Positions 16,703 through 53,324 of a stretch of 64,000 nt of DNA are shown here, piece after piece; positions within the stretch are counted from its first letter, which is position 1; every line of letters begins with the position of its first letter. The notes under the pieces were generated by a model. That model was not told the origin of the DNA. It saw nothing but the letters and a program-made list of their open reading frames with translations, and ran no database searches. Both the position numbers and the translations under genes were made by a program. The stretch comes from Cordylochernes scorpioides (Eukaryota > Arthropoda > Arachnida > Pseudoscorpiones > Chernetidae): NCBI GenBank assembly GCA_030710605.1, contig CP092865.1, positions 140,265,282 to 140,329,281 of the forward strand. The letters are read 5' to 3'.

Positions 16703-16914
16703 TTCTTTGATTTTTTTTTTTTTGCTTATCCCTAGTACAAGTGGTACAGGCCATGATAATCATGGTGAGTAGTGGTAGAAGAATGCTTTTACTGTAAGTG
16801 CAGCACAAGTCTATACATGTGAAAAGCAGTTCGACTTTGCACTTACAAATGTGCCAAGCCCTGTTTGTGCACTCGCAGGTGGGGTTGGACTTTTCAAGAA
16901 TCGGGGGCCATTGG
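16703..16914 (-). mobile_element. SINE-1, left half, cut by assembly gap
   Basis: Tail and body of a minus-strand SINE-1 that stops at CCATTGG exactly where the N run begins. The missing head is found at 53042-53145, right after the second N run. Target duplication TTCTTTGATTTT at 16703-16714 (merging into the T run) and 53146-53157. Confidence 0.9.
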
Positions 16915-17014
16915 NNNNNNNNNNNNNNNNNNNNNNNNNNNNNNNNNNNNNNNNNNNNNNNNNNNNNNNNNNNNNNNNNNNNNNNNNNNNNNNNNNNNNN
17001 NNNNNNNNNNNNNN
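16915..17014. other. Assembly gap of 100 N
   Basis: Round-length N run, normally a scaffold join of unknown size. The right edge does not continue the SINE that the left edge breaks, which questions the join. Confidence 0.98.
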
Positions 17015-17480
17015 TTGTCAATTGAGGTGTGGACTCCAGCTGCCCCCGCTGCCATGTGACAGGCGCTAAAAACAGCATTCCTGTGTGGGGGAGGACAGAG
17101 TCTGGTTACATCTGTGGCAAGGAGAAGACGTGGCGACTTGCCTCCGGGCGTGTGGATGATCCTACAAGGCGGTGTGGGCCAGGCTGCATGTGTAAGTGTG
17201 GGGCGGAACACTTCACAAGATAACATCCACGGCGCCAAGGATTCTTCTGAAGGGGAGGTCGAAGACAAGTCCCACTGTTGTATTCCTTCTGTTAAGTGAG
17301 ACATAATAAAGCGCTAACTTTAGCTGTATCCCTTCGAACTCACATGTGTATCTTTGTGGCATCCTGAGTAGACAAAGTACACGAATAGCGTCTGGGTACG
17401 ACGTAACAATATATATCATTTTAAAATAGTGTATCATTTTTGCATGTATTGACAAGATATCAATAAAATTATTTTAATTG
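17015..17480. other. Contig edge, no gene recognised
   Basis: GC-richer than its surroundings up to about 17300. I looked for the next ABCC exon (start of NBD1 after Walker A) and did not find it. Minus-strand ORFs here show no ABC motif. Confidence 0.4.
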
Positions 17481-17522
17481 TCAATTGTCTATCCAGATAC
17501 AGGTGTGTAGTGAGATACGTAC

Positions 17523-17737
17523 TTGGCAGTAGACGCTGCCCTCGACGCGGTCCGCCTGCCCCACCAGTGCGGCGAGCAGCGTGGACTTGCCACTGCCCAC
17601 CGACCCCAGTACCATGACCAGCTCACCCTGGGGCACTGCCAACGTGACGTCCTGCAGTACGGGGCTCGGCGCCTCGCCCCACTTGAAGGTACCGTTGAGG
17701 ACGTAGAGTGGACAGCCTGCATCGCCAGACATGTCAG
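17523..17737 (-). CDS. ABCC: ABCC/MRP transporter exon 14 (start of NBD1, Walker A)
   Basis: About 215 bp encoding a YVLNGTFKWGEAPSPVLQDV strand and VPQGELVMVLGSVGSGKST, whose GSVGSGKST is the Walker A P-loop that binds ATP. The end DRVEGSVYCQ meets donor GTACGT. The best acceptor (pyrimidine-rich TTACCTAG) gives a start that is one base out of phase with exon 13. An in-phase alternative begins further upstream near 17788, or a micro-exon is missing. Walker B, the signature motif and the second half of the transporter are not in the window. Confidence 0.88.
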
Positions 17738-17820
17738 CTAGGTAACACGACAGCACAATTAGAAAGTGACATCTGTTCTTAAACCTCCCCTGTGAAAACT
17801 CGGCTTCACTTTCAACTATG

Positions 17821-18066
17821 TAGTTTGGTGGATGAATTGTATAAAACGTCTATTTTTGACAGCTACGATCCGAGATTGAATCCCACATTGGACACCTTTT
17901 CTGAATAAAAAAAAACTTGCTCCAATGAGAGACCCCAGATTCTTGAAAAAGTTCAACCCCACCAATGATACGAGTAACCAAAACGGGGTTCAAACACACT
18001 TCTAAGTGTAAAAGTCGAATTGATTTCTACATGTGTAGACATGTGATGTACTTACAGTAAAAATCG
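17821..18066 (+). mobile_element. SINE-1 copy, old and diverged
   Basis: Plus-strand copy with degraded box B (GAGATTGAATCCC) and a recognisable body (CATGTGTAGACATGTG). The tail is replaced by a retrozyme-like repeat. Confidence 0.7.
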
Positions 18067-18390
18067 TTAATTTTTAACTATTCCAGAATTGGGAATATAC
18101 CCTTCCTGACTTAAATATCCGTTCGATGATTTTTCAGAACGCCTCAAAGACCAGATTTTTGGTCGTTGAGATACAGCTTGCAACACGCTGATGAGACGCG
18201 TACGTGTGGCTAGCTCTTCTTGAGTAATCAAGAAGGGTATTGAGACAATACTCTGGAATAATTCAAAACTAACGGTAAGTTGATATTAAATTTCCACACA
18301 GACCATCATCAGAGTTTAGTTTCATCATCAGGAGATGCCATTTTAAAAATATTTATCAACTTGATCCCATTACAATCTCACACTTTTTTT
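18060..18390 (+). mobile_element. Retrozyme/Penelope-like repeat, degenerate hammerhead
   Basis: Related to 10620-11040. At 18177-18216 the CTGATGAG is kept but stem II and GAAAC are deleted, so the ribozyme is dead. Flanking inverted segments (TCTTCTTGAGTAATCAAGAAG) are present. Confidence 0.6.
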
Positions 18391-18409
18391 TACATATGAA
18401 AAATATAGA

Positions 18410-18588
18410 CGGGTTACACTTGCATCGCCCGCTCAAGTCCATCTGGGAACTTTTCCGGGCAAAGGTAATAGCCTACAGCCCCCGGTGTTCCCAGGTGGTC
18501 ACCCTCCCAAGTACTGACCAGGCCCGACATTGCTTAACTTTGGTGATCGGACGAGAACCGGTGTCTTCAATGTGGTATGGCCGTAGGC
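18410..18588 (-). mobile_element. 5S-rRNA-headed retroposon (SINE3-type) with perfect target duplication
   Basis: 179-bp minus-strand insert whose 5' end is exactly the first base of a 118-nt 5S rRNA sequence, followed by a 61-nt body. A perfect 15-bp direct repeat TATGAAAAATATAGA (18395-18409 and 18589-18603) flanks it. This is the hallmark of retroposition, as in 5S-derived SINE3 families. There is no poly-A tail. Confidence 0.85.
18471..18588 (-). rRNA. 5S rRNA-derived sequence (retroposed)
   Basis: 118 nt matching animal 5S rRNA: GGCCATACCAC, ACACCGGTTCTCGTCCGATC, AAGTTAAGCAATGTCGGGCC (internal promoter region) and GGGTGACCACCTGGGAACAC. The first and last bases pair (GCCTAC/GTAGGC). Helix II reads ACATTG/CAATGT, still paired although both strands differ from the usual ACGYTG/CARCGT. 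The 3' side lacks a T4 terminator, and the copy sits inside a retroposon, so it is probably not a working ribosomal gene. Confidence 0.85.
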
Positions 18589-18809
18589 TATGAAAAATAT
18601 AGAGAGAACTCCCTAGATTCGAACTCACACCTTATATTTCAAATAGAATTGTTTTGTTTAATGTGCCTCTGAGCTAAATAAATACTGTGCTAAATGAACT
18701 CAACGCTGATTGGCATATTGATATCACGTGACAGTGAACATCTAATCAGAGTGTGAATTAAACGGACATATCAACCTACATATTAAGGAGTATAGATAGG
18801 TGGTTGTAT

Positions 18810-18893
18810 GTCAGGATGGCCGAGCGGTCTAAGGCGCTGCGTTCAGGTCGCAGTCTACTCTTGTAGGCGTGGGTTCGAATCCCACTTCTGACA
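18810..18893 (+). tRNA. tRNA-Leu(CAG)
   Basis: 84 nt with acceptor GTCAGGA/TTCTGAC, box A GGATGGCCGAGCGGTCTAAG, anticodon loop TTCAGGT (CAG), the long variable arm of leucine tRNAs, T arm GTGGGTTCGAATCCCAC, and a T9 terminator starting two bases after the 3' end. All stems pair. It lies in the intron between ABCC exons 13 and 14, on the opposite strand. It looks functional. Confidence 0.93.
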
Positions 18894-18894
18894 A

Positions 18895-18903
18895 TTTTTT
18901 TTT
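18895..18903 (+). terminator. RNA polymerase III terminator of tRNA-Leu
   Basis: Run of nine T directly after the tRNA, as expected for Pol III termination. Confidence 0.85.
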
Positions 18904-19429
18904 GTGTGTCGTAGGTTGTTGTGTTGTTGTTGCTTATTCCTCAAGTCGTTTAAACTATCTCCAGCATTGTCTCAGCTTTTCTATTATAGTCCTGGGGTTT
19001 TCCCAGAGGTCTTTTTTGGAGGATACAATTCTGTAGATGTTCAGAACTGGCTGGTTGAGAATCGCATTTGGGGAATTTCGGGAATGTTTTGATTTTTTTC
19101 CATTAAATTTGAGCATTCTAAGATGACCTGTTCGTAATCTTGAAATCGCCGTTTGTTCTTCCCTAGTAAGGGTGTGGAAAAAATGAGTCGTAGGTAGAGT
19201 TTGATTAAAGCGAACGATGCATGCGGGAGAAATATTATTTTATTGTAGAGTGTCTTTACAGTTTTATAGAAGTAATTTAAGACCGGCTAACGTCTCTAAT
19301 TATACGGATCAGAATATTCCAGGTTTGAAGGGCAGACTCGTTTTTAATGGTTGCAGAGCTATCTACTCACTTTCCAGACACATTTTCGTGACATATCCTC
19401 GTAACTTACTTTCGAGAAACATTTTGTAA

Positions 19430-20610
19430 CTCAAATTTAGAGACACATTTTGTAACTCAAATTTCATAACACATTTTGTAACTCAAATTTCGTAGCACAT
19501 TTTGTAACTCAAATTTCATAGCACATTTTGTAACTCAAATTTCATAACACATTTTGTAACTCAAATTTCATAACACATTTTGTAACTCAAATTTCATAAC
19601 ACATTTTGTAACTCAAATTTCATAGCACATTTTGTAACTCAAATTTCATAGCACATTTTGTAACTCATATTTAGAGACACATTTTGTAACTCAAATTTAG
19701 AGACACATTTTGTAACTTAAATTTCGAGAAACATTTTGTAACTCAAATTTCATAACACATTTTGTAACTCAAATTTAGAGACACATTTTGTAACTCAAAT
19801 TTGGAGACACATTTTGTAACTCAAATTTGGACACATTTTGTAACTCAAATTTCATAACACATTTTGTAACTTAAATTTAGAGACACATTTTGTAACTCAA
19901 ATTTGGACACATTTTGTAACTCAAATTTCATAACAAATTTTGTAACTCAAATTTGGACACATTTTGTAACTCAAATTTCATAACACATTTTGTAACCCAA
20001 ATTTAGAGACACATTTTGTAACTCAAATTTAGAGACACATTTTGTAACTCAAATTTGGACACATTTTGTAACTCTAATTTCATAAAACATTTTGTAACTC
20101 AAATTTCATAACACATTTTGTAACTCAAATTTCATAACACATTTTGTAAATCAAATTTCAAGAAACATTTTTAACTCAAATTTCATAACACATTTTGTAA
20201 CTCAAATTTAGAGACACATTTTGTAACTCAAATTTAGACACATTTTGTAACTCAAATTTCATAACACATTTTGTAACTCAAATTTCGAGAAACATTTTGT
20301 AACTCAAATTTCATAGCACATTTTGTAACTCAAATTTAGAGACACATTTTGTAACTCAAATTTCATAACACATTTTGTAACTCAAATTTCATAGCACATT
20401 TTGTAACTCAAATTTCGAAACACATTTTGTAACTCAAATTTAGAGACACATTTTGTAACTCAAATTTCATAACACATTTTGTAACTCAAATTTCGAGAAA
20501 CATTTTGTAACTAAAATTTCATAACACATTTTGTAACTCAAATTTCGAGACACATTTTGTAACTCAAATTTCGAGATACATTTTGTAACTCAAATTTCGG
20601 GACACATTTT
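19430..20610. repeat. 26-bp minisatellite (about 45 copies)
   Basis: Tandem units of the form ACATTTTGTAACTCAAATTT plus a variable ATTTCATA/AGAGAC/CGAGAA linker. Units vary mainly in the linker, and some are 21-22 bp. Short copies extend to about 19376. Located in the ABCC exon 13-14 intron. Confidence 0.95.
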
Positions 20611-21570
20611 CGTGGCATATTTTCTTGACCCACTTTCCATGCCCATTTTCGTAGCATAATTTCATTACATGATGACTTTGATATGTTGTTTATCCATTGT
20701 CTCCCTTGTTGTATGTTTGTTAATTTGTATCTCTGTGTGTATATAGTGTCAGGTGAAATTTAATCGGTGCTTGGATTATAAGCCTGACCACTGAACCATC
20801 ATTAATTAATAAGTGTCATCCAAAATTATAACAGTACACACATCACCAGGAGCCAACATTGAACAAGATTAGTTCCCAACTGGTATCTCTCCACAACCCA
20901 AGATAGTTTAAGATAGGGAAGTACAAATACCGCGTTATTCCCATCAAATTGTCATGTCCAATGAAGAGCCTCAGATGTCTCCATGCATCTTTATCACAGC
21001 AGCAGCAATGTCCACTATCTTAGGTGTGTAAAAGATGCTGCTCTGAATCTATGTCAATTTTCTGCAAGGCTGCGGTCATTTCTGGGCATGAGAATATGAG
21101 GGTAGGAGTTAGTTCCACACCGGGACAGTTGTTACATGTCCTATAGGTTCTTGTGCCATCTGGATGTATTGTCATTCCTTTATAGTGTTTTGTTCTAAGT
21201 CTTGCTATAGTTTTCTCTCAGAGTTTATTCCACATATAGTTAGGTCAGTGTTAGGCCAGTATGTGGTAAGATTGAGCCATTGTCAGTTTAAAGTTTTATG
21301 TAGAGAGTTTTATAAATTCTTCGTGTAGAGCTGCCGAACATATAGTTCTACCTTCCCCCTTTCTAGTTACTTCTTTTGCAGAAAAGAGGATCTTCATTAT
21401 AGAAGAAGTTTCAACGTTTCCTTTTCCCCCTCAGCAACAGCAGTTATTGCACAGGACCATCAAATATCATCTCATTGAAGCGGAAAAACCGCTCGGAGGG
21501 TTCACATTGATATAAGATGTCCTTTCTCTTTCAATTTTTATTCATTGTCATATAAGAGGGATCTGTAGAA
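20611..21570. other. Intronic sequence, weak repeat remnants
   Basis: No gene seen. Parts of 20930-21060 and 21100-21210 resemble sequence near 12000-12070 and 12350-12370 (a shared dispersed repeat). A CTCATTGAAGCGG...AACCGCTCGGAGG remnant near 21470 belongs to the inverted-repeat family at 63600. Confidence 0.45.
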
Positions 21571-21572
21571 AT

Positions 21573-21795
21573 ACCCTAATGGTCAAAACTTAAGGAAGTT
21601 GTACCTTTTAGCATGTATATATCGGGATTCAGACAATAAATCTGAAAGATATTTCATACACAGTGACCTTTATTGTGAAGAGACACGGGATAACAAAGTG
21701 TGAACAAAATTGTCTTTGTCTCCTTAAAAAAAAAAATAGACAGCAGGCGACATCAAAGACTTTCCACTTTCCTTAGTTTTGTCCATGAATGTAAC
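21573..21795 (+). mobile_element. MITE family M1 copy
   Basis: Left end GGTCAAAACTTAAGGAAGTT and right end TTTCCTTAGTTTTGTCCATG are inverted repeats. Body as in other copies. Confidence 0.75.
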
Positions 21796-21969
21796 TATAT
21801 ATTTTGAAAGTGGCTCTAAAAATATATTCTAATTTTCAGTATGTAGAATGTTAAAAGGAAGAGTAGCTAATATGGGGAGGGTTATACCAGAGGGGGGCTG
21901 TTTAGGGAACCGACAGGACTTACCAGGGGACTGAGAGAGAAGGAGGAGAACAACTTACTGGGATCGTAC

Positions 21970-22043
21970 CTATCAGGGTGGACGTAGGTCTCGGAGTCCT
22001 CGGACCCCAGGAAGCTGGTCATCCGCTGGATGGACACCCGCGC
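21970..22043 (-). CDS. ABCC: ABCC/MRP transporter exon 13 (end of TMD1)
   Basis: 74-bp exon encoding ARVSIQRMTSFLGSEDSETY and VHPD, matching MRP1 ASVSLKRLRIFLSHEEL. This is the end of the first transmembrane domain, leading into NBD1. Acceptor GTGTAG. Donor GATAG|GTACG leaves two bases. Phase 0 start follows exon 12. Confidence 0.87.
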
Positions 22044-22494
22044 CTACACACACCGGCCATGCTGAGTCTACGGCACCGAACATTAGCTTCGCTTCACTTG
22101 TCGCTCCTTAATCGAACGATGGGGTTGTGATCAAGGCCGTCCCGAGGATTGTGTGCGCGAGATTTCTTGCGATGCCCCCAATCCTACTCGGGATCTCGGG
22201 GGAAAAAATGTTTTTCCCTCTTGCCAAGGCGAACCGGACCACCACCTCTTCATCAGTCCACACACAGCCCAACCTTCCAATACCAAAGTGAGGCTTGTCT
22301 TTCCTAATTTTTTTCTACGTGACAATATTATCAATAAGCGATATATAAAATAACAGAGTTTTTTAAACAAGACGAGGTCAGCACGAGGTTTGGAGCGTGA
22401 CTATCTACTGGTACAACACTAAGAAATGTTTTTCTGTGTTAGTGTTGAACCAGTAGAATGGTACTGTACATCTAGGAGAGAGGGGGAGTCCCAC

Positions 22495-22641
22495 CTGTAC
22501 GATCATAGTGATGATGAGAGGCAGCATGGAGAGCGGGAACCGCAGGATGTTGAAGAGACACAGCGGGATGAAGATGAGGGCGGCGTCCAGGCGGTGGTTG
22601 GGGTCCAGGGCCAGGAAGGCGCTGAAGGTGGACAGCGACAC
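22495..22641 (-). CDS. ABCC: ABCC/MRP transporter exon 12 (TMD1, last helix)
   Basis: 147-bp exon (49 codons) encoding VSLSTFSAFLALDPNHRLDA and LFNILRFPLSMLPLIITMIV. The LFNILRFPL motif is strongly conserved in ABCC TMD1. Acceptor CCCCAG, donor CAG|GTGGGA. Phase 0 at both ends. Confidence 0.93.
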
Positions 22642-22803
22642 CTGGGGAACCATGTGGCTGTATGGCGACTGTATCCACACTCTCAGTCTTCGGTCTAGGT
22701 AGCCCACTATCCAATGGTGTATCTATACTCTTGTATATACGTTACATTCTATCTCCGCTACATCCCAGCTACCTCCCAAAGCTATTCTCCAACGGGAAGT
22801 TAC

Positions 22804-23007
22804 CAGGAATGGGGTGGCCGTCCAGAAGAAGTTGGAGAAGCTGTTGATGTAGGCCATCCTCCGAAGCTTGTGCAGCTCTCTGTCACGCAGAGTGGTCAAC
22901 TTGTCCTCGAAGATCTGCTCCCAGGCGAGGAGCTTGATGGTCTTAATGCCTGATAGGACCTCGTTCATCATTCGGATCCTCTGGTCCTTGAGCTCCATCT
23001 GTCCCAT
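22804..23007 (-). CDS. ABCC: ABCC/MRP transporter exon 11 (TMD1)
   Basis: 204-bp exon (68 codons) encoding LKDQRIRMMNEVLSGIKTIK and LLAWEQIFEDK, the conserved D-R-x-R-x-M-N-E-x-L-x-G-I-K cytoplasmic coupling helix, followed by a helix ending FFWTATPFL. Acceptor GACAG, donor CTG|GTAACT. Phase 0 at both ends. Confidence 0.94.
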
Positions 23008-23036
23008 CTGTCACCACAGTTGGGTCACAGCATGAC

Positions 23037-23960
23037 CTGACCATCAGACAGATTCTCTGTTCTTAAGCCCCATCTACCATTACCTCCATGGTACATTATG
23101 CCCTGGCCTTCAGTCAGATTCTCTGTTCTTAAGCTCCATCTACCATTAAACCTAGGTCGATAACATGTTATAACCTTCAGTCAGATTCTCTGTTCTTAAG
23201 CCCCATCTACCATTAAACCTAGGTAGATAACATGTCATAACCTTCCGTCAGATTCTCTGTTCTTAAGCCCCATCTACCATTAAACCTAGGTCGATAACAT
23301 GTTATAACCTTCAGTCAGATTCTCTGTTCTTAAGCCCCATCTACCATTAAACCTAGGTCGATAACATGTTATAACCTTCAGTCAGATTCTCTGTTCTTAA
23401 GCTCCATATACCATTAAACCTAGGTCGATAACATGTTATAACCTTCAGTCAGATTCTCTGTTCTTAAGCCCCATCTACCATTAAACCTAGGTCGATAACA
23501 TGTCATAACCTTCAGTCAGATTCTTTGTTCTTAAGCCCCATCTACCATTAAACCTAGGTCGATAACATGTCATAACCTTCAGTCAGATTCTCTGTTCTTA
23601 AGCCCCATCTACCATTACAGCCAGGTCACAACATGTGATGACCTTCAGTCAGATCTTCTGACCCTTGTACTCATCTATCATTGCATCCATGGTACATTAT
23701 GTCCTGTCCTTCAGATATATTCTCTGTTCTTAAGCTCTATCTACCACTATAGCCAGCTCAGAAAACATGTCATGATTTTCATGCAGATATTCTGATCTTT
23801 ATATTCTATCTGTCATTACAGCCAGGTCAGAACATGTCATGAATTTCATGTAGATATTCTGATCTTTATATTCTATCTGTCATTACAGCCAGGTCACAGA
23901 GTGTCCTATCTTTCAGACCTATCTCTGTTGCTAAGCTCCATCTGCCATTTTGGCAAGGTC
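23037..23960. repeat. 67-bp minisatellite in intron 10
   Basis: About nine clear tandem copies of a 67-bp unit (CAGATTCTCTGTTCTTAAGC ... ACCTAGGTCGATAACATG) to about 23650, then decaying copies to about 23960. The first unit overlaps sequence just upstream of exon 11 and resembles the exon's own edge (CCTTGAGCTCCATCTGTC vs TCTTAAGCCCCATCTACC), so the array may have grown from the exon 11 splice-acceptor region. Confidence 0.9.
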
Positions 23961-24247
23961 TAGGAATGCTATCCCCTTCAGACAATCTATCTGACAATCT
24001 CCAACTGCCACTTACATTCAGGTTACAGAAAGTCATGATCTTTCATCACAGGCAGATCAGAGCATGCTATTTTATTGAGATAGATCCTTCGACCCTTGTG
24101 CCATATCTTCTATTACAGCAAAGTCATATGCTACCTTTGTCTTGTCACCAACTCTTATATAAATAAAATGGAGTATAAATGTTCTTTATTAAGGTTTACT
24201 AGAGAGAGCAAAATAATAATAACAGAGTTGAAGATCCTAGAAGGTAC

Positions 24248-24502
24248 CTGGAAGATCTTGGAATGGTGGACCACCACACTGTTGACGGGCAGTGTAATGA
24301 GCATCACCAGCAGACCGGCCCCCACGGCAAACCCCAAAATTTTGGAAAGGAAGAAGATGCAGAGGAAGATCTGCAGGGGCGCCGACCACACCAGGTTCAG
24401 GTAGATCAGGAGGTCGGAGCAGCGCTGGATGTCCACGGACATCAAGTTGACCATCTCCCCCAGCGTCGTACGTCGCCGGGCCTCGTTGCTTAGAGTCAGG
24501 CT
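24248..24502 (-). CDS. ABCC: ABCC/MRP transporter exon 10 (TMD1)
   Basis: 255-bp exon (85 codons) encoding SLTLSNEARRRTTLGEMVNL and MSVDIQRCSDLLIYLNLVWS, then APLQIFLCIFFL. The GE-x-VNLMSVD-x-QR motif is diagnostic of ABCC TMD1. Acceptor TCCAG, donor CAG|GTACCT. Phase 0 at both ends, and it follows exon 9 (ending VYKK) exactly as in known MRPs. Confidence 0.95.
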
Positions 24503-24824
24503 CTGGACGTCCGTAACGTACATATAAGATCCTCCTACATACTTTGGTCTTTAAATAGATAATGATCTTCTTATATATGTATAGATTTTGTAATGTGTGG
24601 AGAGAAATAACCACATCACAAGTTGAAAAGGGGCCCAGGCAACCAGAGGGAGAGACGAGACTGGCACAGCCGGGCGGCCGTTCGTGTCGTACACAATCCC
24701 CAACTGTCTTAACTTAATAGTCCCGAGGTGTTAACTAACGGGCCCCAGTGGTCGCCCCTTGAAATGTCGCTGGTGTATCAAGTGACCGGACTTTACCCGC
24801 CCATCTCTGTCTCGGTTGTCTGTA

Positions 24825-25730
24825 CAGAGGGTGTTCACACTTATAGAAAACGAGCGCCCAGTGTGTAAAAAAGGAACTATTACTTTATTTTAAAAAATCA
24901 ACAACGTGGAATTCGAAAAGGCTTAAGCTAATTCTAACACGCTATACATTTCTTTTGTTATTAAAAAAATGCCCTTCAAATACAATAATTTCATAAGAGG
25001 TTATATTTTAGGACTTTCCAGAGCTAATCTTACCTTTTTGGACATATGACGAAGCATGGGTATATTTAACCGATTGCGACAGAAAAAGAGCTATATACTA
25101 TCAAAAAAGGGTGGAAAAATTTAGGCGAATTTGATTGAAGGAATGTGCCGAAAGTTACCCCAAAGGATTTATGGTGGCATGCGGTATATCATATGAAGGA
25201 AAATTAAAAATGAGAAAATTTGAAAAAATGCCAAAATAAACTCGGAGTACTATCAAAACAACATTTTAGAACCTATATTTTTAAATGATATTCCCTCTAT
25301 CTGTCTAAAACAGAGCAACAAAGTCTGGTTTCACCATGATAACGTCACAAGTCATACCTCATCTTCAACCTAAGCTTATTTGGAAGATCTAAGGCAAATA
25401 ACAGGAATCAACACTATTCCAAAGAACAGAACCCCTGTAAAATCTCCTGATTTAGCCCCGAAGAATTTTTGCATTTTTGGATGCCTTAAAAGAGCACTTG
25501 GAAAGAGACACCCTAGGACAATTGAAGGTCTCTGGAAAGTGGTAAAGGAAGATTGGGATCTTTTGAGTATGACCATGATCAGAAAGTGTCTGCTATCGTG
25601 GAAAATCAGGTGCCGTTCTGTAAATAAACAAAAAGGCTTTCAAATAGAACATTTGAAAAATTCCAAATATGGTGTTAATTTTTAATATTTTATAATAAAA
25701 CTTGTTTCCTATAAGTGTGAACACCCTCTG
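24825..25730 (+). mobile_element. IS630-Tc1-mariner element, degenerate
   Basis: Inverted repeats AGAGGGTGTTCACACTTATA at both ends with one mismatch over 29 bp, bounded by TA (823-824 and 731-732 of the 24 and 25 kb lines). Inside, the 3' half of a transposase is readable but has stops. It lies in the intron between exons 9 and 10. Confidence 0.85.
25320..25685 (+). pseudogene. Tc1/mariner-like transposase remnant
   Basis: Readable C-terminal part: W-F-H-H-D-N then a stop, followed by KSPDLAPKNFCIFGCLKRAL, which carries a late catalytic aspartate in the SPDLxP context. The tail ends near 25684. Confidence 0.8.
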
Positions 25731-25734
25731 TAGT

Positions 25735-26225
25735 TTGGCTTTATTTGTTGAAAACAATGTACATGTAGAAGGGGAGGTTTTTATACCACATATATGTTGT
25801 AATGTGTGGAGCCGACAATACGTCGCAGTGATTCCTTATCCAACCTGCAGTCATGGGGCCAGAGTGGGAGCGCACTAGCGTGAAGATAAATGAAGACCAC
25901 AGACATAGGAACATGGTTACTTCAGTTTAGAGGGGGCATCACCCGGGAAGGTGAAGTGGACTATGGAAGTCCTGGGATCGCTTTGGTCAATCGAGCAACA
26001 TGACGACCTAATGCTGTCCTGTCTTCTCCCTATGCTCCTGTGGGCTCAGAAGGAACCCCGCTTATATGCTAATAATGACGTCAGAGAGGGCGGATTTGTT
26101 GTCCAATCAAAGATTGGCATAGCCTGTCCACATCCTTACTAGTCGACCTTACTGGGTGCCGCGCCCTTCTTTTTTCCGCTGGTAGATTTTATTAAACGCC
26201 ATTTTGAGATTATATCAGGTTTGGT
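25735..26225. other. Intronic sequence, nothing recognised
   Basis: Moderately GC-rich stretch without conserved coding content or repeats elsewhere in the window. Confidence 0.4.
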
Positions 26226-26425
26226 GTTTTTATGTAGAATATTCTTATGAAAAAATAATAGAAAAAATAAAAAGCCAAGGTGTTGATATTAAAATAAAAA
26301 AGGCATATCCTGAACAGGAGCACATGTGCTTTACAGGTGGCAGAGCGCCATCTGGTGGAACAGAAATCAACTAAACATTGATTTAGCCTGTTCCTATGTA
26401 TAACTTTGTATAGATACAATAAATA
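26226..26425. repeat. Partial copy of the inverted-repeat element at 63365
   Basis: Shares GGCATATCCT..CAGGAGCACATGTGCTT and AGAGCGCCATCTGGTGGAAC with 63365-63566 and 16640-16702. Disrupted by the Gypsy insertion to the right. Confidence 0.6.
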
Positions 26426-26441
26426 TAATACGACATGTATA

Positions 26442-27084: not shown

Positions 27085-27105
27085 GCTAGTCGACAGGATT
27101 ATACC

Positions 27106-30200: not shown

Positions 30201-30229
30201 TCTGTGGGTTCCTAGACGCGTCCCTTATT

Positions 30230-43208: not shown

Positions 43209-43260
43209 GCTTGCACCACGCTGATGAGGGCCAACAGCCCGAAACGCATCCGTGGTTAGC
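43209..43260 (+). ncRNA. Hammerhead ribozyme motif (cleavage context altered)
   Basis: CTGATGAG, stem II GGGC/GCCC, GAAAC and stem I ACCACG/CGTGGT are intact. The cleavage triplet region reads GCATC instead of GCGTC, which removes the C-G pair of the tiny helix III, so activity is uncertain. Confidence 0.65.
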
Positions 43261-43277
43261 TTTTCTTGATTAATCAA

Positions 43278-43593
43278 CAACAACAAAAAGCCTTTATTTA
43301 GGGTCACTGACCCTATACAGGATTCACCAGAGGTATGCATAAGAACAAAGCAGTGAGACAAAGGAAATAACGATATAAACAGAAGAAAAAGAAAAAAAAC
43401 AAGAAAGAGAAAGAGGGAAGCTAGAAAAACAACACAAAAAGAGTAGCAGTAAGAAAGTAAGGGTGATTGTCACTTGGCCTTCTTCTGAGATATGGACTTG
43501 TGGAAATCATAAAACGCCGTAGCAATATACTTATTCTGGGTCATATTGTCAATTATTGATGGAAGTGAAGCACAGAGTTGCCCAGTTTTGAGC
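43278..43593 (-). mobile_element. 5'-truncated LINE insertion with 15-bp target duplication
   Basis: Minus-strand insert ending AATAAAGGCTTTTTGTTGTT (polyadenylation signal and TTG tail). The start has coding remains ending KSISQKKAK. A perfect duplication TTCTTGATTAATCAA at 43263-43277 and 43594-43608 proves target-primed insertion into the hammerhead repeat. Confidence 0.88.
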
Positions 43594-43740
43594 TTCTTGA
43601 TTAATCAAGAATGGGTATTTGGCCAATTCTGTAATAATTAAAAATCAACGAGAATAGTTTATATTTATTCCGATAGATGGCGCAAGACATCAGCAACTTT
43701 CAGTTGCATGATAAGGAGATGCCTTTTTTATAAATAATGC

Positions 43741-44490
43741 ACTAAATTTCTCTGTGTAGTAGTATGTCCATACTACTACAGATTTAGAGGCCTACAAGCG
43801 ATTCATAATATAGTAAATATTTTAATGGTTACCGATTTTAACCATCTTTAGATGTCTTTTTCACTTTCAAATTTGATTTAATCACTTATTACACGCCATA
43901 AGAAATTGATTTGAGTTTGTGGTGTATTTAGGTTGATTTAAAAGTAGAAATATATTTTAGGCTTTATTTATTTAAATGGCTTTTATTATATTAAACTGTA
44001 GTAGATACAAACTCAAGAATTACAAGTCAAGAACAACAGAATGATGATAAGTTATATATTACGATGTATACATCACAGAATAATAATCTGTGGATTTAAA
44101 ATTATTATTGTTGTATAGTTATTATTTAATTTATTAATTAAACATTACTCACCAGATGAAATTATTTTATTACAATTATATATATTTAAAAGGTTACATT
44201 TATTTTATTTTACAATTTTCTTTTTATTCGAATCCAAGGTTTTTTTTTTTTTTCGCTTCACGCGCTCTATGATGATGATATACTCTATCTTCAAACACAG
44301 AATACTACATTCATAATATAAATATACGACAGAGTTAAATTCTGTTTTTTTAACACCTGTATGGAAATAATACTTCTTTTCCCTTACTATTTTCACACAT
44401 TAATGAGGTTTGATATCAAAATGTTTATCTTTTTTATATTGAGATTCTGTAGGAGAACATTTTGGCGTTCGGGATGACTTCTCGCTTATA
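43741..44490. other. AT-rich sequence, nothing recognised
   Basis: Very AT-rich with poly-T tracts. No conserved coding sequence. Confidence 0.4.
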
Positions 44491-44495
44491 TTTAA

Positions 44496-45409
44496 CTAGA
44501 CGAATGGCCCGGGCAACGCCCGCATTTTACCCGAGTGCGGATATGTTTTTAAAACGTTGTCTTGGGTGGTCGCTATAGACAGGGTGGTCTGTATAGACAG
44601 GTGAATGTAACACACAGCTGATAACAGGGTTGTCTAGAGTGGCCGCTATAGACAGGGTGGTCTGTATAGACAGGTAGTTGTATCACACAGCTGATAACAG
44701 GGTTGTCTAGAGTGGCCGCTATAGACAGGTGTATGTATCACACAGCTGATAACAGGGTTATCTGGAATGGCCGCTATATACAGGGTGGTCTGTATAGACA
44801 GGTGGATGTATCACACAGCTGATAACAGGGTTGTCTAGAGTGGCCGCTATAGACAGGGTGGTCTGTATAGACAGGTGGATGTATCACACAGCTGATAGCA
44901 GGGTTGTCTAGAGTGGCCGCTATAGACAGGTGAATGTAACACACAGCTGATAACAGGGTTGCCTAAGGTGACCGCTATAGACAGGGTGGTCTGTATAGAC
45001 AGGTGGATGTATCACACAGCTGATAACAGGGTTGTCTAGAGTGGCCGCTATAGACAGGTGTATGTATCACACAGCTGATAACAGGGTTATCTGGAATGGC
45101 CGCTATATACAGGGTGGTCTGTATAGACAGGTGGATGTATCACACAGCTGATAACAGGGTTGTCTAGAGTGGTCGCTATAGGCAGGGTGGTCAGTGGTCG
45201 CTATAGACAGGGTGGTCTGTATAGACAGGTGGATGTATCACACTGCTGATAACAGGGTTGTCTGGAATGGCGGCTTTAGACAGGTGTATGTATCACACAG
45301 CTGATAACAGGGTTGTCTAGAGGGGGGCAGGGAGGACACGTGTTCGCCGGCAGCCAATGGGCGCGCATTCTATCCGTGAGCTTCAGAATAAGGCAATTAT
45401 ATAAGTAGA
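44496..45409 (-). mobile_element. Non-autonomous Helitron with internal minisatellite
   Basis: On the minus strand it starts TCTACTTATATAATTGCC at 45409 and ends GGGCGTTGCCCGGGCC..CGTCTAG at 44496, flanked by A and T. Both ends match the Helitron at 14777-15501. The interior 44560-45325 is a tandem array. Confidence 0.88.
44560..45325. repeat. Minisatellite inside Helitron (mixed 54/74-bp units)
   Basis: About eleven units with GTGGCCGCTATAGACAGG, an optional GTGGTCTGTATAGACAGG segment, and ATCACACAGCTGATAACAGG. Long and short units alternate irregularly. Confidence 0.9.
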
Positions 45410-45554
45410 TTGTACATGGTTGTGTTTATTGTTTCCCTCATTGTTTCTTACTATATATATATATATATATATATATCTTTTAACTAAGTATGCACACTTT
45501 ACCACTGAAGGAGGTAAAATAATTGTTTAAAAAAACTGAAAAAAATGTATTTGT

Positions 45555-45778
45555 AGCACGACATTTGAAAATTATCCCGCATGTGTTTCTTTTGAACGAA
45601 AAATCTAATTTTATTTTAAGGAGAAATAACGATTATTTCTAACCATAGAGATGAAGTATGAAAGGATGAATTGTGAAGAGTAATGATAAACGGAAAAATA
45701 AGTGTCCAGGGATGGGAATCGAACCCACAGTGTTCCGCTTACCGGGCAGATGCCATGTCCACTAGGCTACCCCAGACA
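45555..45778 (-). mobile_element. tRNA-headed SINE (second SINE family)
   Basis: Minus strand. The head 45703-45778 is a cloverleaf-capable tRNA-like sequence (anticodon loop CCGGTAA), followed by a body with AATAATCGTTATTTCTCC to about 45555. The family also includes the fold-back at 40805-41102, and the head alone is at 14869-14944. Confidence 0.7.
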
Positions 45779-46139
45779 TATTTTTCTGTTCGTAAATATT
45801 ATATAAAGTAATTTATAATAAAATATAATGCGGATTATATTGTATTATACACATTTTATATGTGTTTGAATTAAATGATGCATGTGTCATGTAAGCCTAG
45901 ATTTTATAAAATAAATATTGAGGCGAGATATATTATCACTTTATATAATTATCGAATAACTCTTAATCATTAAGCATAAGTTAAAGTAAAGAAAAAAAGG
46001 GAAAAATCAATAACAATGAACCTAGCTTAACAATAACTTTTGAAATTTCAGCTAAATGTGAATGAAGACAAAGAAGGTCTTCTCAAAAGAATTGTAAAAA
46101 CCTCGCTTGGGGAACGATCACGTTTGGGATTATACTCCG

Positions 46140-47330
46140 GTATCATTTCAGGATGCCTCTTTTTCCCCTGAAGTCTCGGAGATGATGTGGCGGCCTATTC
46201 TTAATTACCCACGAAGTCTCGGAGATGATGGCGGCCTATTCTATATTACCCACGAAGTCTCGGAGATGATGGAGGCTTATTCTATATTACCCACGAAGTC
46301 TCGGAGATGATGGCGGCCTATTCTATATTACCCACGAAGTCTCGGAGATGATGGCGGCCTATTCTATATTACCCACGAAGTCTCGGAGATGATGGCGGCC
46401 TATTCTATATTACCCACGAAGTCTCGAAGATGATGGCGGCCTATTCTATATTACCCACGAAGTCTCGGAGATGATGGCGGCCTATTCTATATTACCCACG
46501 AAGTCTCGAAGATGATGGCGGCCTATTCTATATTACCCACGAAGTCTCGGAGATGATGGCGGCCTATTCTATACTACCCACGAAGTCTCGGAGATGATGG
46601 CGGCCTATTCTATACTACCCACGAAGTCTCGGAGATGATGGCAACCTATTCTATATTACCTACCAAGTCTCGGAGATGATGGCGGCCTATTCTATATTAC
46701 CCATGAAGTCTCGGAGATGATGGCTTATTCTATATTACCCACGAAGTCTCGGAGTTGATGGAGGCCTATTCTATATTACCCACGAAGTCTCGGAGATGAT
46801 GGCGGCCTATTCTATATTACCCACGAAGTCTCGGAGATGATGGCGGCCTATTCTATATTACCCACGAAGTTTCGGAGATGATCGCGGCCTATTCTATATT
46901 ACCCACGAAGTCTCGGAGATGATGGCGGCCTATTCTATATTACCCACGAAGTCTCAGAGATGATGGCGGCCTATTCTATATTACCCACGAAGTCTCGGAG
47001 ATGATCGCGGCCTATTCTATACTACCCACGAAGTCTCGGAGATGATGGCGGCCTATTCTATATAACCCACGAAGTCTCGGAGATGATAACGGCCTATTCT
47101 ACATTACCCACGAAGTCTCGGAGATGATGGCGGCCTATTCTATATTACCCACGAAGTCTCGGAGATGATGGTGGCCTATTCTATATTACCCACGAAGTCT
47201 CGGAGATGATAGCGGCCTATTCTATATAACCCACGAAGTCTCGGAGATGATGGTGGCCTATTCTATATTACACACGAAGTCTAGGAGATGATGGCGGCCT
47301 ATCCTATATTACCCACAAGATCTCGGGAAT
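46140..47330. repeat. 41-bp minisatellite (about 29 copies)
   Basis: Units CTCGGAGATGATGGCGGCCT plus ATTCTATATTACCCACGAAGT, highly uniform in the centre and decaying after about 47300. Not a multiple of three, so the short ORF across it is not meaningful. Confidence 0.96.
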
Positions 47331-48160
47331 GGACTTTTCTATGCTACCAACAAAGTCTCTGAGATGGTCTTTTCAATTTTATCAACGAAATTTCGGAGAT
47401 GAAGGTGGCCAATTCTATTGTATATTACCAAGAAAGTCTCTGAAATCGAGGTCTTCTATTTCACCTAACAAGAGTTAGAGTCGATGGTTAATTCTATATC
47501 AGTGAAGAAATACCTTGATATAAAGACGATGATGTCAAGGGCAGCGAGGATCTAAGTACAAGGTAAGTCTATGTAAAATTCACTTCCTGAACTCACGTAG
47601 CTTGTCTGAGGCATTTCACTAAAGAGAGGCGAGTTAATCGTCGGATTTATAAACATGATTAGAAATATGTTTTAGAACATATAAACAGATGCAACTCCTA
47701 TACACTATCAAAATCAATTTTAAAGACTTTTGCATTTTTAATTCAGCATTTTGCATGCTTTGCAATGTGGGTTCAACAAATACTCAAACAATGAAAACAT
47801 AATTATAAAATATTAATTTTGAAGGTAAATAAAAATTACTTTCATAGTCAATCGGTTGTATCTTAAGAAGATTTTAGATCTTTCTTCTCTAACATCTATC
47901 GATTTATTGCCATCCCCTTTATCCATATTTCTAATTTGTGTGATTCAATGTGATAAGATATCGAAAGAAAACCTTTTAGATTCATAAAAATACTTATATT
48001 TTGTGTTTTTAGTCTCTTTTTTTTTTTCTAAGAAATAAAGACAGCTTTTAATTTAAAACTAACTATGAAATTCTAATTAACAACAACCTATACACTCAGC
48101 TAATCTGTGCAGCTTGTAACAACTTCTTATCCTTATATTTAGATGGTACACTTATGATAC
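47331..48160. other. AT-rich sequence, nothing recognised
   Basis: Decayed 41-bp units to about 47460, then AT-rich DNA without gene or repeat. Confidence 0.4.
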
Positions 48161-48470
48161 AGTAGAGCCTCCATGAGAGGACACCTTTCAACAAAGGACA
48201 GTTTTCATTGGTAAAAGTACCCTCCATTTTTACTTTTTATCATCTCTCCAATGAGAGGACACCTCTCTCTAAAGTACACACTCTGGCTCTGCAACTACAG
48301 TATGACCTCGTTAATTCGACACGCGCCAATTCGACACTCTGCGATAATTCGACCATGTTCTGATGTCCCGACCTCCTGCCTATCAAATAACAAACCGTAA
48401 TTCGACACTATCGATAATACGACACTTACGATAGTTCGACCATTTTAAAATTCGAATTTTGAGTGTGGAA
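48161..48470. mobile_element. MITE M2 copy joined to a pogo-like fragment
   Basis: CAGTAGAGCCTCCATGAGAG (M2, reversed) runs to about 48298, followed directly by CAGTATGACCTCGTTAATTC and repeated AATTCGACA blocks typical of pogo/Tigger ends. The right end of the second element is not found. Confidence 0.65.
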
Positions 48471-48593
48471 TGTTTTTTTTTTTTATATACAGTATATGTT
48501 TTTACAAAGAGGATCTACTGTATTTGATTGTTGTCTTTCCAGCTCTTTTTTTTTTTATCTTTGCTAAAGAGCAATGTTCAAAACAGTACTTGA

Positions 48594-48822
48594 ATATACA
48601 CTCATGGACAAAACTTAAGTAAGTTGTAATTTTTAGCATGCACTATATATAGTATATAGGAACTTAGACAATAACTCTGAAAGATATTTGATACACAGTG
48701 AAGTATTGAAGAAACATCAGATAACCAAGTGTGAACAAAATTGTCTCTGTCTTCTTCATTCAAAAAAAAAACAGATGACCAGCAACATACACTTCCTTAA
48801 GTTTTGTCCATGAGTGTATTTG
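48594..48822 (+). mobile_element. MITE M1, best-preserved copy
   Basis: About 229 bp with roughly 28-bp terminal inverted repeats (ACTCATGGACAAAACTTAAG / CTTAAGTTTTGTCCATGAGT), bounded by TA. It defines the family. Confidence 0.85.
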
Positions 48823-48859
48823 TCCCAAAGCTCTCTCTTACATGTATAATTTTTCCCTA

Positions 48860-49135
48860 AATACACCTATCCCCCGATTTACACGGTACTTGTTTTACAC
48901 GTTTTCACTTTTACAAATAAGTTTTTTTTGTTTGTTTTTATCGCACTATACTAAATGCTACTGTGATTGAACACATGCGCTGTGTACACATCTCACGAGG
49001 AATCCCGAGCTTATGTGCTGACTACATATTTAACCTGTCAATGCATTTTATTTTTATTTCTGTGTACACCTATCCCCCGATTTACACGTTTTTCTCAGGA
49101 ACGTATCTACCGTGAAAATCGGGGGATAGGTGTAC
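48860..49135. mobile_element. MITE family M5
   Basis: Inverted ends ACACCTATCCCCCGATTTAC / ATCGGGGGATAGGTGT. The left end is repeated at 49064, so two copies overlap or are nested. Confidence 0.75.
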
Positions 49136-49175
49136 TGTATTGCCAAGAATTCCTCCAAATTGTTGGCTAAAGAAG

Positions 49176-49320
49176 CAGAATGGGGTCCAACACAATAATA
49201 GAGTGGTATGGTAGATTACACAATCATAACTGCTGGGAAGGTACACCACTGATGAGTCCAGCCCCAACAATATTTTTCTCATTGCAATAAGAGCAGAAAG
49301 GAAATTTTGTTTCATTTGAA
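49176..49320. repeat. Fragment of the inverted-repeat family at 63600
   Basis: Shares the ACCACTGATGAGTCCAGCCC region and the CTCATTGCAATAAGAGCAG end with the elements at 40145-40440 and 63600-63840. Confidence 0.55.
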
Positions 49321-49381
49321 AAAGACACCCCAAAAAAAGTTTATAATTTTTCTTTGGATCAGCTTTATGTGATTAAGAATA

Positions 49382-49470
49382 CAATTAAAGAGTTCTTGAA
49401 CTTCTTTATGAGCATGACCTCCAAGATCTTGTCTAATTTAGACTAATAAAAGGATAAGTAAAAAAAAAAA
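49382..49470 (+). mobile_element. LINE 3' tail fragment, second family
   Basis: Same as 41826-41910 in opposite orientation, ending AAAAGGATAAGTAAAAAAA. Confidence 0.7.
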
Positions 49471-49479
49471 AGCATACAA

Positions 49480-49622
49480 TTTTGAATATAGATTAAAAAC
49501 ACAAGGTAAAATAAGACCAAAAATACAGATAAATAAATTCAGTGTGATGTTTCGGCAAGAGCGTTGTTATCAAAACATCACAGACTATTTATTTATTGTG
49601 ATTTGTACTTATTACCTTGTGT
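49480..49622. repeat. Palindromic repeat P1
   Basis: Inverted AATAAATTCAGTGTGATGTTT and AAACATCACAGACTATTTATT arms around a short centre. Confidence 0.65.
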
Positions 49623-49859
49623 TATAGTAATTATCTTTATATTTTCTCATTACGGTAAAAAATATTTAAAGCTGGTGGGGGTAGAGTATCTTCAAAATTC
49701 TGGTAATAAGTATTAGTGATGGCTTAGATTTAGTTTGCAGATAAAATATTTTAAAAAATGTTTGTTGGGCAAAGTGTTTGTTGGTACTTAAGGGTTTTAA
49801 TACAATTAAACAAACAAACAAGGATTCCAATAAGGCACAATTTGGAAGGAATGGAAATC

Positions 49860-50160
49860 TAATGCTGCACATGACTGGTACAGAGCAGGAGGTGACAAGC
49901 ACCGGTTCTGTCCTCCCAAGAAAACAAGTCTTTGATTTCCAGACTTAAGTCTGGTCATCTACGGACAATGAATTTCCAGAATGGTTGCAGGGTTTTCCTA
50001 CTATGTACTAAGTGTCAACCTGCAACCCCAAGACACATTATTGACTGTATTGACTCATCCATTGATGAGCTCTACTCTTCCCCGGCAGACACCATCAGAA
50101 GTCTCAATCTTTACAAGCTTAATACCTTAGTGTAATTGAGTGGAGATAAGAAAGAAGAAG
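49860..50160 (+). mobile_element. LINE 3'-end fragment
   Basis: 67-residue plus-strand frame (MISRLKSGHLRTMNFQNG, then LCTKCQPATPRHIIDC) ending near 50133, with the GGAGATAAGAAAGAAG tail. Same family as 41370 and 53325. Confidence 0.78.
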
Positions 50161-50189
50161 ACAATTTGGATTATAAGGTAACTACAAGG

Positions 50190-50625
50190 TTGTTGTTTCT
50201 TATCCCCTTGTGTAAAGATTACACAAATTCCATGAGATCACTCATGGAATAGGGTGTAGAGGTGCAGCTTTCGTTGATCATGACACCATGATCCAGGCAC
50301 ACTTTGGGGAAAGTTTGACTTTGCCTGTAGTTTGAGGCCGTTCCTAACATGGAAGCATACGCCTTTGCTGCCGACGCTAACATGAGTACAGACGCAGCTC
50401 CTCCATATTCCTGGAGAGGGACCCTTGCTGAGGTCTATCAACCAGGTCAGCTGAACTCAGGATTCTTAAAGAGGTATTTCTCCTCTTCTAACAATGGTGC
50501 TGTTGGTTCGCAACTGCTCATTCGTCAGAGTTATTCTGCTTGTTTCACAGCTGGCTTCATATCTGAAGGTCATTCCCCTATCCGCCACCTGGGGACGCGC
50601 CCTATAGCAGTCAGCTCTGCCAAGG
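50190..50625 (-). mobile_element. R2 element with LINE-type tail
   Basis: Minus-strand, nearly full-length R2 copy from TTTCTTATCCCCTTGTGTAA (tail) to CCACCTGGGGACGCGCCC. Confidence 0.7.
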
Positions 50626-50671
50626 TAACTACAAGGTAATAAGAAAAAACCCAAATAAAATAACCACATCA

Positions 50672-50778
50672 ACCAATGATTTATTTAACTCCCGAAGTTT
50701 CAGTGACCTGCTGTCACTCTTCTCAGGTGAAGCAAGTCACTGAAAGGTCTGGAGTTAAATAAATCATTGGTTGATGTC
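50672..50778. repeat. Palindrome with hammerhead-like core
   Basis: Arms AACCAATGATTTATTTAACT / AGTTAAATAAATCATTGGTT. On the minus strand the centre reads CCTGAGAAGAGTGAC, GTCACTGAAAC. Stem AGTGAC/GTCACT plus GAAAC resemble stem II and core of a hammerhead with a mutated CTGATGA. Confidence 0.6.
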
Positions 50779-50809
50779 GCTATATTCTTTCTGAATCAAC
50801 TTGCAACCA

Positions 50810-50920
50810 ACAAATGTTCTTTGAAACCAAATAAATTAGTAGTGTGTGATGTTTCAGTAAGAGCTCTGTTAGAGAAACATCACACACTATTAATTTATTT
50901 GGATTTGGTATTATTATCTT
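50810..50920. repeat. Palindromic repeat P1 (SINE-1 inserted in right end)
   Basis: TAGTAGTGTGTGATGTTTC and GAAACATCACACACTATTAA arms. The SINE at 50921-51230 interrupts its ATTATTATCTT end. Confidence 0.7.
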
Positions 50921-51230
50921 TTTTTTTTGCTTATCTCTAGTACACGTGGTACAGGCCATGATAATCATGGTGGGTAGATGTTGGCGACTGCTTTTACTGT
51001 AAGTGCACCACATGTCTACACATGTGAAAAGCAGTTCGACTTTACACTTACAAATGTTCCAGAGTCCCGTTTGGTTACTTGAACTCCCTGGTGGGGTTGG
51101 ACTTTTGCAAGAATCGGGGAACATTGGAGCATTTTTTTTTTATCAGAAAAAAGTGCCCAATGCGGGAATCAAACCCGGGTTGTAGCGGTTGAAAACCAAC
51201 GGTTTAGACCATCCTTCCACCGACCCCCCC
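50921..51230 (-). mobile_element. SINE-1, full-length with target duplication
   Basis: Best SINE-1 copy: head box A TGGTCTAAACCG, box B-like GGTTTGATTCC, body, GATAAGC plus A-run. An 11-bp duplication ATTATTATCTT flanks it at 50910-50920 and 51231-51241. Confidence 0.9.
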
Positions 51231-51514
51231 ATTATTATCTTGTTAAACAAGGGTTACAATAGGGTAATAGAGACATGTACAAGAAGACACACAAGGAGTC
51301 ACACTTATAAACACAATATTTATTTCTTCTCTACATATGAAATAAACAATGTATTCCTACAAAATGGTGCCATACCTCCCAGCAGAGTGTTGTCCATGTT
51401 GTTGACAGAGCAAGTTACAAACACACATTGTATCTTTAAACAATAACAAAGTGTTAGAGCAGCAAATGAAAACATTAAGACGTGAATGTTTCTTTTACAC
51501 ATCAATCAAACTTC

Positions 51515-51825
51515 TACTGTTGTTGTTGTTTCTTATCCCCTTGTGTAAAGATTATACGAATTCCATGAGTTAATGCTCCTCAAGCTGTTTTATGATAAGC
51601 AGTGGCCTCTCCCAAAGGTCCTATTTAGTGCATCTAATGCAAGCCAAAATATGTTCTGGAGCTGCAGGTGCCAAGCTACATTTTGGGCAAGTGGGGTAGA
51701 TTTTGTTATTATTTTCTATCTTCAATGGCTTGAGATGGCCTGTTCTAAATCTTGTTAGTGTTGTTTGATGCTGTCTATTTCTGATGTTCGAATCTCCTCC
51801 TGGGTCCACTCCACTGTACCAACTG
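51515..51825 (-). mobile_element. LINE 3'-end fragment, R2-partner family
   Basis: Minus-strand frame with TTLTRFRTGHLKPLKIENNN and CPKCSLAPAAPEHILACIRC (C-x2-C...H-x4-C), then a tail TTTACACAAGGGGATAAG with (AAC)n. The upstream part joins the 680-bp GC-rich repeat at about 51825. Confidence 0.78.
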
Positions 51826-52941
51826 CGTGGGGAAGAAGTTTTCCCACCCTCTACAATCACTCTAGAGGGGAGTGGAGTGGAGAGGCGACTCTGCGTGTTT
51901 GCCTTACGTCGGAGTGCCACTGGCCGGAGTTAGTGAAGCTGTAAGCTGGCTTCGGCCCTTGGTTAGCTGGCGTGAGACGCACGAGTCTTGAAACTCTTGG
52001 GTCTTCGCTCTGTGTGTGAGTCATTGGGAGCGTCCTTGCCGTGCGCGAAAATTGCACCATGGCTAGGCCTGGTGTTGAAAAACCAAGGGGTGCACACAGC
52101 AGTACCACCCCCCCGCCTTCGCGTTGGTTCCCCGCGTAAACCTCAGAACCTCAGAGGTCCTTGATTCGACGGCAGATTCAGGGAGTACTGTGATCAAAGG
52201 TTCGAGGGCCAAAGGGGGGGGGAGTCCTATTGGAGCGTAGGACGGGGTTTAACTAAGTCCGAACGAGAGGGCTCGGTCAGTAACCTTGCCAATGAACTCT
52301 CGGAGACGCCTGTGGGTGAATGGTCAACCCCATGGAGCCAGACCATAATGGCGGGCGCGAAGGGCCTACCAATGGCCGCTCGGTGCATGGAGAATGCATC
52401 ATTCCCTTTTGGCTGTGTGACCTGGATGTCAGCAAAGGTATTCGGTTTATGGACCTTTGAGGTCTGGGGAACTATTGCTCCTAGAATATACCAACTGTGC
52501 AAGGGGTGCACACAGCAGTACCACCCTCCCGCCTTCGCGTTGGTTCCCTGCGTAAACCTCAGAACCTCAGAGGTCCTTGATTCGTCGGCAGATTCAGGGA
52601 GTACTGTGAACAAAGGGTTCGAGGGCCAAAGGGGGGGGAGTCCTATTGGAGCGTAGGACGGGTTTAACTAAGTCCGAACAGGAGGGCTCAGTCAGCAACC
52701 TTGCCATGAACTCTCGGAGACGCCTGTGGGTTTGATTGGTCGACCCCATGGAGCCAGACCATAATAGCGGGCGCAAGGGGCCAAACAATGGCCCCTCGGT
52801 GCTTGGAGAATGCATCATTCCTTTTGGTTAGGTGACCTAGATACAGCAATGGGTATGCTATCGAATGCCGGTTTATGGACCGAAAGGTCTGGGTGGCCAC
52901 TGCTCCAAGGATATACCAGCTGTGCTTAGGTGGGATCCTTC
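51826..52941. repeat. 680-bp GC-rich repeat, about 1.6 copies, cut by gap
   Basis: Contains CTTGGGTCTTCGCTCTGTGT, AACCAAGGGGTGCACACAGC, GGAGCCAGACCATAATGGCG and CTCGGTGCATGGAGAATGCA blocks, seen again three to four times at 60770-63085. No conserved protein is encoded. The contig ends inside this repeat. Confidence 0.85.
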
Positions 52942-53041
52942 NNNNNNNNNNNNNNNNNNNNNNNNNNNNNNNNNNNNNNNNNNNNNNNNNNNNNNNNNNN
53001 NNNNNNNNNNNNNNNNNNNNNNNNNNNNNNNNNNNNNNNNN
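52942..53041. other. Assembly gap of 100 N
   Basis: Round-length N run. The right edge starts in the middle of a SINE-1 whose other half is left of the first gap. Confidence 0.98.
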
Positions 53042-53145
53042 AGAATTTTTTTTTTTATCAGAAAAAAAGTGTCCAATGCGGGAATCGAACCCAGGTCGTA
53101 GCGGTCAAAAACCAACGGTTTAGACCATCCTTCCACCGACCCCCT
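53042..53145 (-). mobile_element. SINE-1, right half (tRNA head), cut by assembly gap
   Basis: Begins in the poly-T region and contains the head (box B GGTTCGATTCC, GGATGGTCTAAACC). It completes the SINE that stops at 16914. The target duplication TTCTTTGATTTT follows at 53146-53157. Confidence 0.9.
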
Positions 53146-53324
53146 TTCTTTGATTTTAATATATCTAAATATCATTTAAAGACAACTTTGAATCAACCAA
53201 AAGCTTTGATCCCATGGTATGTTGAATTAAAGAAGTTATATTATATTTGATTGATCTTTTGATTACTTGTTCAGCAAGGATTGCTCTGTTCATGCTAGAA
53301 GATATAATCTGCCAATTAGAATAT

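Follow-up and report, generated by a model that had tools for sequence, protein, structure and literature searches.

Short interspersed elements (SINEs) derived from transfer RNA (tRNA) are short, dispersed repeats that have a T-rich end and are flanked by target duplications. In genome assemblies, both alleles of a divergent region can be found in one haploid sequence, and the cases of such heterotype false duplication dealt with in one paper often lie adjacent to each other with gaps between them, and can bring exons into the neighbourhood of another gene (Ko et al., 2022; PMC9516828). Heterozygosity in three vertebrates is given there as 0.22-0.95%. The scaffolding program HiRise is described as breaking input contigs at putative misassemblies (PMC5411772), and its joins as being written as 100 N (PMC5982815). 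Here we analysed a stretch of 64,000 nucleotides (the window) from the pseudoscorpion Cordylochernes scorpioides (assembly GCA_030710605.1, sequence CP092865.1, here C3, positions 140265282-140329281). In this window a SINE is split across two gaps that enclose a block of 35.9 kb, and the block carries part of an ABCC-type transporter gene. We conclude that the split reflects an assembly artefact of a type already described, not biology, and that the block is, with a probability of roughly 0.8, a retained contig of a second haplotype (a heterotype false duplication) which a scaffolder put inside a broken contig.

Coordinates are those of the window, with negative numbers lying to its left and numbers above 64000 to its right. 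The window was compared together with 100 kb on each side (264 kb), and genome searches covered 2.62 Gb in 24 sequences. The sequences separated by runs of N were called, from left to right, outer-left, left, block, right 1, right 2 and right 3. Besides the two gaps that bound the block, the runs at 64512-64611 and 131556-131655 are of exactly 100 N. A run of 7277 N, unlike these gaps and perhaps a sized one, occupies -69276 to -62000.

The two SINE parts together make up one 304-bp element (Table 1). A first-pass annotation of the window, which named the element SINE-1, had claimed that one copy was split across the two gaps, and alignment to six other copies in the window confirmed that the halves are complementary to the base. 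The junction reads GG/AGAAT, as against GGAGCAT in all six of these copies, with zero bases lost or repeated. The joined halves matched the intact copy in the block with 87.8% identity over 312 columns, covering all but its final base (BLAST), and the match of each half alone was confined to its own part of that copy. The right part had been described as a tRNA-like head; no tRNA was reported in it by ARAGORN or by Rfam at the gathering threshold. The family is dispersed, with at least 40 matches on many chromosomes when the best 40 of 5010 first-look candidates were scored.

Directly outside both SINE parts stands the 12-bp sequence TTCTTTGATTTT, so that the target duplication reported earlier is indeed present on both sides. 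As a control, we took 19 full-length SINE copies and compared the left flank of one with the right flank of another in 342 pairs. At least 12 common bases were found in one pair (a TA run of 13 bases) and at least 10 in three, and the flanks of the split SINE had at most 8 and 9 bases in common with those of any of the 19 copies. It had also been argued that the host sequence reads continuously once the site is emptied. The host repeat at 16615-16714 is 82% identical to 63466-63566 and stops close to the duplication, and no other match to 53158-53300 was found within the 264 kb. Three of the eight other host tails set out (63540, 118080 and 150905) continue exactly as TTTTTAATATAT. The agreement beyond the duplication is thus with these three tails and over about seven A+T-rich bases, and the host-repeat argument is weaker than was first stated. 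At a locus on C2 (L039; C2:196338083-196339083), a related host repeat carries a SINE of the same family at the equivalent place in its T-rich tail, but flanked by another target duplication, which points to insertion preference and not to copying. A composite repeat, in which host and SINE were copied together, would have weakened the argument from the duplication; this was rejected on the different duplication at the C2 locus, the only one examined.

Independent evidence was provided by the transporter gene. Comparison with Pfam and the PDB supported the presence of an ABCC-type (MRP/SUR-like) gene on the minus strand, and a protein search returned distant ABCC-type and other ABC proteins with at most 67% identity over part of the query. 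For exon matching, 7 of the 46 proteins found were used, two of them being re-run on the minus strand alone. Matches to the gene in the left sequence extend from an N-terminal exon (16377) to the C-terminal exon (-58951), including both halves of the first nucleotide-binding domain (NBD1) and the second such domain (NBD2). A second copy of the exons for the first transmembrane domain (TMD1) and for the first half of NBD1 was found in the block, and the 3' part of the gene, with TMD2 and NBD2, recurs in the outer-left sequence beyond the run of 7277 N. The N-terminal exon, which we assigned to this gene because of its order and strand, is present once in the genome, and the second half of NBD1 is likewise single apart from a distant match of 72% on C8. 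Each of the block exon regions 17480-17985 and 24179-24824 is present twice at near full length, in the block and in the left sequence, in addition to shorter repeat matches. In the present order, the sequence to the left of the block is the N-terminal exon, where the downstream exons of the block itself would be expected. The exact abutment of the SINE halves, the target duplication and the gene order therefore indicate that the block is foreign to the site between 16914 and 53042. This upholds the proposal of the first-pass annotation that 1-16914 and 53042 onward are adjacent and that the sequence between them is misplaced.

The copies of the gene encode a nearly identical protein. Over five exon pairs, the block and the left sequence showed 31 synonymous differences and 1 non-synonymous difference (proportions pS of 0.135 and pN of 0.0014, respectively), and over three exon pairs the outer-left and left sequences showed 22 and 3 (pS 0.110; pN 0.0053). 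Two outer-left/left exon regions with an in-frame stop, which are probably introns, were omitted from these counts.

The earlier proposal gave the block no identity, and this can now be extended. Chained alignment shows the block to be a second, diverged version of the sequence 25-49 kb to its left. The chain runs across 17048-51520 in 18 pieces on the same strand as the left sequence, with 90.25% identity over 12.9 kb, and scored 17116, as against 2288 for the other strand of the left sequence, 1365 for right 1 and less than 810 for right 2, right 3 and outer-left. Insertions separate the two copies. The left sequence has an empty site for a repeat resembling a miniature inverted-repeat transposable element found at 26250-26390 in the block, and about 26443-34855 of the block (8.4 kb), containing integrase and reverse-transcriptase RNase H domains of a retrotransposon, is absent from the left sequence. 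Substitutions per aligned base amounted to 7.2% between block and left, 5.0% between outer-left and left, and 3.9% between right 3 and right 2. On its right the block ends within a dispersed repeat, for which the best 40 scored of 3018 candidates gave 70 matches, so its right-hand neighbour could not be located. A second allele of the start of right 1 (53150-53650) was sought, and no other full-length match was found among the best 40 of 2804 candidates.

Table 1. Features at and around the split SINE (window coordinates).
Feature	Position	Strand	Basis
Left target-site duplication, TTCTTTGATTTT	16703..16714	+	sequence; cross-pair control
Left part of split SINE (positions 1-200 of 304, + strand reading), ending at contig edge	16715..16914	-	alignment to other copies
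Gap, exactly 100 N	16915..17014	.	N count
Misplaced 35.9-kb block, colinear in 18 pieces with C3:140233166-140256877 (-32115 to -8404)	17015..52941	+	chained alignment, 90.25%
Intact SINE within block, yardstick for the join; left-copy partner at -9356 to -9040	50919..51228	-	alignment
Gap, exactly 100 N	52942..53041	.	N count
Right part of split SINE (positions 201-304), tRNA-like head of the first-pass annotation	53042..53145	-	alignment to other copies
Right target-site duplication, TTCTTTGATTTT	53146..53157	+	sequence
ABCC N-terminal exon of left gene copy; single genome match	16210..16377	-	protein matching, genome search
Second copy of ABCC exon, first half of NBD1; 0 amino-acid differences from left copy over 66 amino acids	17508..17705	-	Pfam/PDB and protein matching
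Second copy of three ABCC membrane-domain exon matches (22492-22641, 22798-23010, 24248-24505)	22492..24505	-	protein matching
Second copy of a further, weaker ABCC membrane-domain exon match	35115..35240	-	protein matching

Other features were seen in and beside the block. Identical direct repeats of 300 bases, perhaps the ends of one element, lie 2882 bases apart at 36290-36589 and 39172-39471. A 5S ribosomal RNA match (107 bits, minus strand) at 18470-18588 has a plus-strand tRNA-Leu 220 bases away. To the right of the block, 55542-59411 contains minus-strand frames of a Ty1/copia-type retrotransposon, of which 55542-56723 matched RVT_2 (1.4e-50) and the others were judged by eye.

A second copy may indicate that either an alternative haplotype has been retained, or the gene is truly duplicated and the block, although misplaced here, is a paralogue. 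The latter is the main rival to a retained haplotype. In such a head-to-tail duplication of the ABCC gene, the place of the block would be around the 7277-N run, beside the 3' part of the second gene at -69277. Two parts of a second gene in the same orientation are indeed present, the 3' one in the outer-left sequence and one lying further 5' in the block; about 10.5 kb would lie between them in the coordinates of the left copy, which is of the same order as the run of N, and differences of 11-13% at synonymous sites are high for alleles. We nevertheless consider a tandem paralogue unlikely, in view of how the neighbouring sequences overlap. The outer-left stretch -91652 to -69277 matches -61999 to -42644 of the left sequence, with the homology reaching the edge of each sequence in a dovetail. 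The same dovetail is seen across a 100-N gap further right, where right 2 from 105470 to 131555 matches right 3 at 131656-163329 in seven pieces (92.75% over 20 kb; C3:140370751-140396836 and C3:140396937-140428610), and is probably another pair of retained haplotypes. Dovetails that reach the edges are expected of overlapping haplotype contigs, whereas tandem duplications would need to have their boundaries at the breaks twice. A duplicated gene would also leave the lack of a second N-terminal exon and of a second copy of the other half of NBD1 to be accounted for.

Genes of the MCM and CCT families, which are normally single in animals, showed a similar pattern elsewhere in the genome, and this too argues against a tandem paralogue. 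Genome-wide matches were grouped into loci by ourselves, and the repeated copies lay within about 170 kb. Local repetition was found at 5 of 16 loci: three of eight MCM loci (twice on C13 near 86.0 Mb, three times on C3 near 172.9 Mb, and twice, inverted, on C7) and two of eight substantial CCT/HSP60 loci (C2 3.73-3.84 Mb, inverted; C6 94.50-94.67 Mb, same strand), the latter count omitting partial matches on C23, at C17:61.85 Mb and, in five instances, on C15. The sequence was read for one of the repeated pairs, the MCM pair at C7:85711975-85726342, which is inverted around exactly 100 N, with 92.5% identity in the longest stretch and 84-96% in others.

Insertion of the 36 kb into the SINE in the animal itself, by duplicative transposition or segmental duplication, could give a clean cut around sequence copied from nearby. 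Both junctions would then have to match the 100-N gaps base for base, the SINE shows no duplicated base, and a further part of the second copy stands in the outer-left sequence. Comparison of the first and last 500 bases of the block revealed no long common repeat (best 16 bp, 87.5%, E = 0.1). We therefore regard a real insertion as very improbable. A mobile element in its own right was ruled out, since terminal repeats were lacking in this comparison and the join has no repeated base, and a contaminant was ruled out by the repeats and the gene common to the block and its surroundings. That two separate SINEs, each interrupted by one of the gaps, resemble halves of one by chance is scarcely credible despite the abundance of the family and the possibility of repeated insertion in T-rich tails of related host repeats, as at the C2 locus, given that the halves abut exactly within a common 12-bp duplication which the flanks of the 19 other copies do not approach.

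How a retained second haplotype could have come to lie at this site may be envisaged as follows. The stretches 1-16914 and 53042-64511 would originally have been one piece of DNA with one SINE. The scaffolding program would have broken this piece inside the SINE and placed the 35.9-kb contig between the halves, with a gap of 100 N on either side. The second contig may have been retained because the haplotypes differ by 4-7% substitutions and by insertions, and an allele that had diverged would attract contacts close to its partner and might be fitted into such a break. A cut with neither a lost nor a repeated base suggests that the contig was broken after assembly. We infer an allelic relation between the copies, and a proximity-ligation scaffolder as the cause of the break.

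Several observations weigh against a retained haplotype placed in this way. Just 36% of the length of the block was aligned to the left copy, and of the rest two insertions were traced. The assembly contains just part of the second gene copy. Between -19386 and the N-terminal exon (16377) the search yielded no clear exon, apart from a weak match at 8107. Synonymous differences of about 11-13% are very high for two alleles. Assemblers that emit abutting contigs could produce the same clean cut, and gaps of 100 N are common to many pipelines and not specific to HiRise. There is to our mind an even chance that both copies are genuine alleles from a single animal or a pool, differing by 4-7% in aligned substitutions and by 11-13% at synonymous positions in one gene, as in a hyperdiverse species, a hybrid or a mixture of cryptic species; the MCM locus in three copies on C3 would fit more than two haplotypes.

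These results indicate that the chromosome sequence holds wrongly placed alternative copies, and gene counts, synteny and apparent tandem duplications in this genome call for caution until haplotigs are removed. Where a mobile element is interrupted by two gaps, its halves and the target duplication around them provide a cheap test for neighbouring contigs that needs no reads. The interest that remains lies in the large divergence between the presumed haplotypes.

With regard to known systems, SINE-1 resembles tRNA-derived families in being short and dispersed, in its T-rich end and in its target duplications, and was matched here to no named family. The likeness to HiRise-type breaking and joining lies in the presumed breaking of a contig and in the 100-N joins (PMC5411772; PMC5982815, for the features described there). 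As for false duplication, we found a colinear second copy in one haploid sequence, gaps between the copies, and usually single genes repeated elsewhere. Compared with the cases presented by Ko et al. (2022; PMC9516828), the copy at this locus sits inside the contig of the other, cuts a SINE and differs from its partner by 4-7% substitutions.

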